Origin: a virus
IMG/VR virus record: IMGVR_UViG_3300042402_001533
Coordinates: 1 to 33,378 of that record
Strand: one strand, 5' to 3'
DNA length: 33,378 nt
Shown here: positions 25,193 through 26,556 of the stretch, piece by piece
Layout: each line of letters opens with the position of its first letter
Numbering within the stretch: position 1 is the first letter of the stretch
Notes under the pieces: model-generated
Databases searched by the model: none
Told to the model about the DNA's origin: nothing
The model's input: only the letters and a program-made list of their open reading frames with translations
Made by a program: the position numbers and the translations under genes

Positions 25193-25302
25193 ATGGGGTA
25201 TTACAGGAAATGGGTAAGATGTGGAAATGGGGTCTCTTCTCGCCGAAGCACTTTTTTCGCACTAATTGCACTATATGACCGATATGTCCTATATTATATG
25301 CA

Positions 25303-25400
25303 TATATAGCAAGAAACCCAATCAGAGGCGGATCCGATTGGGTTCTCATATCTTGCGATATATGTGCGTAGGAACATGTGGGATGCTACAACTACGCACA
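25303..25400 (-). ncRNA. Probable structured small RNA (two abutting hairpins)
   Basis: Read leftward, hairpin B (TGTGCGTAG/CTACGCACA, 9 bp, 20-nt loop, 25363-25400) is followed without a gap by hairpin A (12-bp outer stem TCTTGC.../...GCAAGA with one mismatch, plus AACCCAATC/GATTGGGTT 9-bp inner stem, 25303-25362). A minus promoter TTGACT (25429-25434), 17-nt spacer, TACAAT (25406-25411) predicts a start at about 25400, exactly the first base of hairpin B. The 12-nt apical loop of A holds the self-complementary GGATCC. No reading frame is seen. A plus-strand promoter (TTGCAC-18-TATATT) is a weaker alternative. No known RNA family is recognised. Confidence 0.62.
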
Positions 25401-25405
25401 ATTCA

Positions 25406-25434
25406 ATTGTAAAATAGCTTTTATTCTAAGTCAA
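25406..25434 (-). promoter_or_regulatory. Promoter of the structured RNA
   Basis: Minus strand TTGACT, 17-nt spacer, TACAAT. It begins 7 nt after the stop of the gene at 25441. Confidence 0.68.
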
Positions 25435-25440
25435 CTGTTT

Positions 25441-25665
25441 TTAGAATAAAGTTTGCTGCCCGTCTTCTTCTGTTGGAGCAGAGTATGATGGGGCGGGTCC
25501 AAGAAGGTACCCTTCCTCATGATATGAAACCATCTTAGATACATCCTCTGGCCCAACTAGTTTATTTGCAATAATTGTCAATAGGTCATATATACGGTGA
25601 AGCATAATATAGTTAACCATTGGTAGGTTATCTTCTAATGCTGATGATTTTTCTTCATTTTTCAT
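25441..25665 (-). CDS. Conserved-type phage protein
   Basis: 74 residues: LPMVNYIMLHRIYDLLTIIA, KMVSYHEEGYLLGPAPSYSA, ending QQTLF. The MLHRIYD motif recurs in actinophages as I recall. The C-terminal QQTLF resembles a sliding-clamp binding motif (QxxLF), a possible link to replication; not proven. Confidence 0.68.
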   Translation of the reverse strand: MKNEEKSSALEDNLPMVNYIMLHRIYDLLTIIANKLVGPEDVSKMVSYHEEGYLLGPAPSYSAPTEEDGQQTLF

Positions 25666-25762
25666 CTGGTCTACCTAAGTCTTCCCAAAATTTTTCCCGC
25701 CCCATATTATCAATAGGAATAATTGGGGTGCTGTTGCATTGGCAGTCTTTATCACATGTCAT
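25655..25762 (-). CDS. Cys-rich microprotein
   Basis: 35 residues: MTCDKDCQCNSTPIIPIDNM, GREKFWEDLGRPDEK. Three Cys near the start. It overlaps both neighbours by about 11 nt. Tentative. Confidence 0.52.
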   Translation of the reverse strand: MTCDKDCQCNSTPIIPIDNMGREKFWEDLGRPDEK

Positions 25763-25973
25763 CTTGGACCTTCTTCATAGTCTTTATAATCTCATCATAA
25801 AAACCAAATCCTATAAACTTTTTATATTCACAAGATAGGCAATACAAGTATACCTCGTCTTCATTTGTCTGATTAGGAAGAAGAAGACCTTGATCTAGTG
25901 GGCAAACCAGTCTAGGAACAAGGCCTTCTTCAGAAAGTGCTATGTATTGAGATACTTGCTGTATCCTACGCAT
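25752..25973 (-). CDS. Zinc-binding phage protein
   Basis: 73 residues: LVPRLVCPLDQGLLLPNQTN, YLYCLSCEYKKFIGFGFYDE. One Cys plus CLSC pair; recurring actinophage family (VCPMDQG ... YCLxCxYK) as I recall, unknown function. AGGAG lies before its ATG. Confidence 0.7.
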   Translation of the reverse strand: MRRIQQVSQYIALSEEGLVPRLVCPLDQGLLLPNQTNEDEVYLYCLSCEYKKFIGFGFYDEIIKTMKKVQDDM

Positions 25974-25979
25974 TTTCTC

Positions 25980-26531
25980 CTACTTCAAGGTAGTTGGGAA
26001 TTTAGTATAAAATTCCTTCGCTCTTGGGGTTAAACCCTTCCAAGCTGACCAATTTGTACCGCCCTTGGTCATATAGTACGTTATCTCTGCGTTTATTACT
26101 GGATCAAATAATAGTACATTTGATCTCAGGTCAAATTTTTCTTTACGAGCAACACCAAGGTTTCCCAACATGTTGATCTGAAAAATTCCATAGGAACTGT
26201 CTCCAGTATTCCTGTTGCCATTATATGCTAGTGGGCGTCCATTGGACTCCGTCTTTGCAATGGCCCAAGCCGTTTTAAGGGCTTTGCCTTCAAAACCTAC
26301 TGCTGACAGTAGTTCTTTCAGTTCAATGTCTGAAAGCATTTCCGAAGGCTTATAAACAGTATTGCTGTACTTCTCTAAGGTTTCTTGCTTAAGTTGTACT
26401 TCTGTCTTTGGTTCTACTTTTAAAGCTTGAGCGGGGATCACTGTATTGTTTGTAAATAGGAATAATGTTATCATTACTACTACAGTCGTACTGTGAGCAA
26501 AATCGCTTAGCTTTTGCTTTATATTCTCCAT
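25980..26531 (-). CDS. Membrane-anchored lysozyme/transglycosylase-like protein
   Basis: 183 residues from ATG 26531, since AGGAGG is 8 nt away from it but only 2 nt from the ATG at 26537. An N-terminal hydrophobic segment (TTVVVMITLFLFTNNTVIPA) is a signal or anchor. Then a lysozyme-like fold: AWAIAKTESNGRPLAYNGNR with a candidate catalytic Glu in KTESNG, and SSYGIFQINM typical of SLT/goose-type lysozymes. The rest (SNVLLFDPVINAEITYYMTK) fits the family. It would cleave peptidoglycan glycan strands from outside; role in entry, lysis or superinfection immunity is unknown. Confidence 0.8.
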   Translation of the reverse strand: MENIKQKLSDFAHSTTVVVMITLFLFTNNTVIPAQALKVEPKTEVQLKQETLEKYSNTVYKPSEMLSDIELKELLSAVGFEGKALKTAWAIAKTESNGRPLAYNGNRNTGDSSYGIFQINMLGNLGVARKEKFDLRSNVLLFDPVINAEITYYMTKGGTNWSAWKGLTPRAKEFYTKFPTTLK

Positions 26532-26556
26532 TGGCATTTCCTCCTTTAGAGATAAC

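Follow-up and report, generated by a model that had tools for sequence, protein, structure and literature searches.

A small structured RNA of about 95 nt, with three hairpins in the order P1 (5'), P2 (small and variable) and P3, is predicted on the minus strand of the window, the whole 33,378-nucleotide stretch of viral DNA analysed here. The RNA is well supported as a family that forms part of the core genome of a large clade of probable actinophages. Our best guess, to which we assign a probability of roughly 0.5, is that it acts in trans as an abundant phage RNA, with the P3 octaloop as its point of contact with a host RNA or protein that does not vary. The features of the window that bear on this are as follows.

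25304..25399, minus strand: small RNA, matched by the covariance model at 25399-25304 with 78.3 bits; predicted +1 at 25399 and 3' end near 25304
25406..25434, minus strand: sigma-70-type promoter TTGACT-17-TACAAT, from its sequence and from its spacing and rarity in relatives
25364..25399, minus strand: hairpin P1, GUGCGUAG..CUACGCAC, with a two-nucleotide pyrimidine bulge and an inner helix AGCAU/AUGUU
25348..25361, minus strand: hairpin P2, AUAUCGCAAGAUAU, from covariation; its tetraloop is variable across the family
25313..25345, minus strand: terminator-like hairpin P3, GAACCCAAUC-GGAUCCGCCUCU-GAUUGGGUUUC, from covariation
25326..25333, minus strand: invariant octaloop AUCCGCCU, the same in 129 of 130 distinct sequences
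25302..25316, minus strand: U-rich tail 3' of P3, the likely transcription end, from its sequence; relatives are also U-rich here
25441..25665, minus strand: gene upstream of the RNA, 74 aa, with a PHROG match (phrog_12271, function not assigned)
25752..25973, minus strand: small upstream gene, 73 aa, zinc-ribbon-like (CxxD..CxxC), without a PHROG match
25980..26537, minus strand: upstream lysozyme-like/transglycosylase gene (Pfam SLT_3, SLT), the synteny anchor

An earlier, sequence-only reading of this region had proposed an undescribed small RNA of two hairpins with its own promoter, and as a whole it was partly supported. The minus-strand promoter, with the -35 element TTGACT at 25434-25429, a spacer of 17 nt and the -10 element TACAAT at 25411-25406, and the start at 25399, where the first stem (GUGCGUAG/CUACGCAC) begins, were confirmed by sequence and are kept in most relatives. 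The window RNA folds at -42 kcal/mol compared to -23.3 +/- 3.2 for shuffles (z -5.85), which together with covariation in relatives indicates that the hairpins are real. The region had also been said to hold no frame, and no ORF of at least 60 aa was found over it among the window ORFs. The number of hairpins had to be revised, since covariation across the family gives three; the two-hairpin picture is the minimum free energy fold of the window's single sequence, in which a longer outer helix that is not common to the family swallows P2. P3 has the features of an intrinsic terminator, a G+C stem (CCC/GGG in nearly all members) followed by a U-rich tract, and the window's own tail, UUUCUUGCUAU, is a weak one.

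To describe the family, viral contigs were scanned with a DNA pattern for the P3 stem in which the loop was left free. Among the matches listed, 97 of 105 twelve-nucleotide loops were exactly GGATCCGCCTCT. An independent set of 130 loci was then picked solely by similarity of the SLT (lysozyme-like) protein, and a covariance model built from 31 members found the RNA in 109 of them, each time 3' of the SLT gene and in the same orientation. In the remaining 21 the contig ran at most 1.6 kb beyond the SLT gene (at most 0.81 kb in 18). All 22 long related contigs (57-116 kb) carry the RNA, once on its own strand; one long contig has two same-strand copies, one at each contig end, which fits the expectation for a redundant end. 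The proteins closest to the window's glycosyltransferase (52% identity) and ribonucleotide reductase (66%) belong to Streptomyces phages of about 130 kb in the Stanwilliamsviridae, and these phages and the window have in common a gene order in which an SLT/endolysin gene is followed by glycosyltransferase and reductase genes on the opposite strand. Since both the nearest proteins and the gene order match Streptomyces phages, an actinobacterial host is likely, and the viruses of this clade probably infect actinobacteria.

Covariation was measured in 65 non-redundant sequences, and loops were counted in 130 distinct sequences. Standard pairs filled 95.6% of pair cells, and both-side changes were seen in 25 of 28 pairs: 10 of 11 in P1 (97.6% of cells paired), 5 of 5 in P2 and 10 of 12 in P3. 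The covariation score was 0.607, compared to 0.219 for shuffled and 0.04-0.10 for slid pairings, figures that are somewhat inflated because the alignment was fitted to the covariance model. The pairs that close the P3 loop, which are absent from the model, covary too (outer G-U, A-U or G-C; inner G-C or A-U). Thus the stems change with compensation in related phages, the opposite of the uncompensated breakage that the sequence-only reading had named as counting against it, and the three-hairpin family is well supported by these sequences. Within P1, the bulge (G-U-Y-G opposite C-C) is near-invariant and the apical loop is variable among relatives.

The pair cells contained 175 G-U and 12 A-C, and this excess points to selection on RNA of the minus strand, the promoter strand. 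The same asymmetry argues against a DNA element, such as an origin, cruciform, recombination or packaging site, a reading prompted by a single copy per genome in a similar place and by inverted repeats, which are present on both strands. A promoter at a near-constant distance from P1, and a bulge and hairpins conserved as RNA features, also speak against it, and we consider it the least probable explanation. A second short conserved element was observed at 25240-25285 of the window on the minus strand, with a consensus of about ATAGTGCGAAAAAAGTGCGYCGGCGGTAGAAGAACC and direct repeats AGTGC. At least 28 of 65 relatives have such an element in the orientation of the RNA, at a distance of 15-3150 nt on its 3' side. 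An operator, an origin or a packaging site are possible roles.

A promoter scan of the window by itself was not significant (13 found, 11.2 expected); unlike that scan, conservation of the promoter in relatives is the significant part. The consensus is TTGACW-17-TAYAMT, and in most members the RNA starts at the first base of P1. The spacing of the best promoter was exactly 17 nt in 55 of the 65 non-redundant members, and most members scored 10-11 of 12, compared to 7-9 for shuffled sequence. In six relatives of 104-116 kb, TTGAC[AT]-17-TA[CT]A[AC]T occurred at 1-6 sites per genome that always included the RNA promoter, which in one of them was the only strict match in the genome. About a quarter of the non-redundant set has a missing or unrecognisable promoter (L447, L464, L471, L445, L458, L468, L450 and others), and in many of these P1 starts about 15 nt or less from the upstream stop codon. 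In such members the RNA would have to derive from operon mRNA, and several may have switched from a stand-alone RNA to one derived from a 3' UTR.

These promoterless members leave room for a role in cis, in which P3 terminates and stabilises the mRNA of the SLT lysis-gene operon and the members of the family are structured 3' UTRs that have often gained an internal promoter. In the window, the SLT operon ends with a gene whose stop is at 25441, and the RNA comes just after it on the minus strand. An SLT gene lies near the RNA, on the same strand and with the RNA downstream, in 62 of the 65 non-redundant loci, and P3 is terminator-like. However, a terminator needs neither an invariant octaloop nor a covarying, bulged 5' hairpin, and the near-consensus promoter of most members would make the RNA alone. 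In addition, the gene immediately upstream changes between relatives while the RNA stays, which points to the RNA as an independent unit. We regard this cis role as improbable. The genes 3' of the RNA also differ among relatives and sometimes include antisense tRNA genes. In many relatives (L154, L155, L163, L189 and others), the gene 3' of the RNA has TATAAT only a few nt before its ATG; these genes look leaderless, with a promoter that abuts the terminator of the RNA.

The octaloop AUCCGCCU departs from identity in one distinct sequence, L032, which has a short deletion. The closing-pair classes around it are GG..CU, AG..CU, GG..CC, GA..UU and UA..UA. The sequence-only reading had noted GGATCC in an apical loop, which is indeed present in the loop of P3, and had suggested a kissing dimer through it, as in packaging or dimerising RNAs. 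GGAUCC is kept in 102 of 130 distinct sequences, including the window (classes GG..CU and GG..CC), which is the evidence for loops that kiss to form dimers or rings for genome packaging or virion assembly. However, 27 of the 130 distinct sequences, all from intact members, have lost the palindrome (AGAUCC in 22, GAAUCC in 3 and UAAUCC in 2), and the non-palindromic AUCCGCCU stays fixed, so a self-complementary apical loop is not conserved. As the outer loop letters are covarying pairs, the palindrome is a by-product of the commonest closing pairs beside AUCC. The P1 apical loop is too variable to serve the P3 loop as a fixed partner, no adjoining packaging ATPase was seen, and the search for packaging-RNA features found none. 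These results make a dimerising or packaging RNA very improbable.

In phi29, the packaging RNA (pRNA) has two loops that complement each other for ring formation. The RNA described here resembles it in being phage-encoded, small and structured, with its own promoter. It differs from pRNA in having three hairpins in a row and no three-way junction, a palindrome that is not conserved, no conserved loop-loop complementarity and no Rfam match. Two complementary loops of the phi29 type were not found, the P1 apical loop being variable and the P3 octaloop invariant, and the phages here are far larger (relatives above 100 kb).

A loop that is invariant in otherwise diverged viruses suggests a partner that does not vary. 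In 22 related phage contigs the octaloop complement AGGCGGAT showed no enrichment (about 45 occurrences other than in the RNA, compared to 62 for the reversed control), nor did it as RGGCGGRT in six related genomes. No 8-mer complement of the octaloop was found in sampled actinobacterial rRNA, and the phage tRNAs offered no convincing target. With no site from these searches of phage genomes and sampled rRNA, the partners left to consider are an mRNA or other stable RNA of the host, or a protein. We rejected the idea that the loop mimics the 16S 3' end (GGAUCACCUCC), because the common leading letters covary and only AUCCGCCU is fixed.

The RNA could instead be a scaffold or decoy in which one conserved protein reads the P1 pyrimidine bulge and the octaloop and no target is paired. 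Candidates are a host RNA-binding protein, a ribosomal protein, RNA polymerase or, among phage proteins, one such as the zinc-ribbon protein encoded nearby. Both conserved spots, the G-U-Y-G bulge and the octaloop, are unpaired, and the lack of a conserved complementary site in the 22 contigs, six genomes and sampled actinobacterial rRNA is consistent with this. A relative of the zinc-ribbon-like gene lies near the RNA in 57 of 65 loci, but this link may be ordinary synteny and the partner is conjectural. C-rich loops are also typical of base-pairing small RNAs in Gram-positive bacteria, which counts against a reading by protein only. We consider a protein-binding scaffold possible, with the odds clearly against it. 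Base pairing with, or titration of, a host component thus ranks first, the protein-only scaffold second and the cis 3'-end role third.

The 6C RNA of Actinobacteria has two loops with runs of six C. Like this and other C-rich-loop RNAs of Gram-positive bacteria, the RNA described here is small and structured, with a C-rich hairpin loop that could pair with a G-rich target RNA. The two differ in that ours is phage-encoded, has three hairpins and has no Rfam match; two stem-loops with at least six C each were not found, the single conserved loop being AUCCGCCU.

The sequence-only reading had placed the RNA in no known family, and this held: a scan of the window with Rfam 15 (4227 families) gave 0 matches at the curated gathering threshold, and a permissive scan gave chance matches only (best E 0.81). 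There was no DNA-level match among the isolated phages in the collection, and nine Streptomyces Stanwilliamsviridae records gave no match or weak, chance-level ones only. A pattern scan of 84,980 bacterial species returned 11 chance-like matches in which the rest of the RNA was absent. The covariance model found no homolog in 296 Actinomycetota genomes; its one weak match was a terminator-like palindrome with a truncated loop. No description of this RNA was found in the open-access literature, so that an earlier one is possible beyond it, and the eight papers that contain the loop sequence all have titles on subjects other than phage RNA.

Between the SLT operon and the glycosyltransferase, Streptomyces Stanwilliamsviridae have a structured intergenic region of another kind (L358:4680-4880, Karimac; also L359, L360, L361 and L365). 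One of its hairpin loops can pair with a stretch further downstream, and changes in one are matched by changes in the other (CTCCACCT/AGGTGGAG, TGCGACC/GGTCGCA, TGCACC/GGTGCA, GGGTCC/GGACCC), which suggests an intramolecular kissing interaction or pseudoknot. In Streptomyces phage EGole (L360:781-875) part of this region is covered by a tRNA-Arg annotation, which may be mistaken.

To our knowledge, few small RNAs encoded by phages have been studied well, and most of those belong to temperate phages of enterobacteria. The stable RNAs C and D of T4 (species 1 and 2) are, like ours, short phage RNAs without an assigned function. They differ in their setting, the tRNA cluster of an enterobacterial phage, the comparison being by Rfam scan. 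Regulation by base pairing is seen in phage small RNAs such as DicF and c4 antisense RNA, some of which are terminator-shaped (PMC12197685); that review does not mention actinophages. Those RNAs have known targets, and the RNA described here lacks an Rfam match. It has the marks of a phage small non-coding RNA, being structured, non-coding and conserved, with its own promoter except in about a quarter of members. With Rfam negative and no paper found, this family of predicted phage small RNAs appears to be new.

In the preferred explanation, a near-consensus, host-type promoter would start the RNA at the P1 base in most members, and host RNA polymerase would make it in quantity. P1 and P2, with the terminal P3, may protect the RNA, and the P1 bulge may bind protein. 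P3, which resembles an intrinsic terminator, displays the octaloop AUCCGCCU, which would act in trans, most likely by base pairing with a hardly varying host RNA (AGGCGGAU-like target), or alternatively by titration of a conserved host factor. Host expression would thereby be redirected or defence blunted. The promoter, start, fold, strand, end, octaloop invariance and near-invariance of the bulge are supported by sequence, and we infer the abundant expression and the trans role. More specifically, and with somewhat less confidence than the general reading, the octaloop may bind a single component that all hosts conserve, either a stable RNA or part of the expression machinery, as an RNA-made device for host takeover or counter-defence fixed across an environmental actinophage clade. 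The strong covariation, the precise strand and start and an eight-nucleotide likely functional site make the RNA directly testable. It appears to belong to the core of a large phage clade, and this hints that these phages act on their hosts partly through a conserved step based on RNA.
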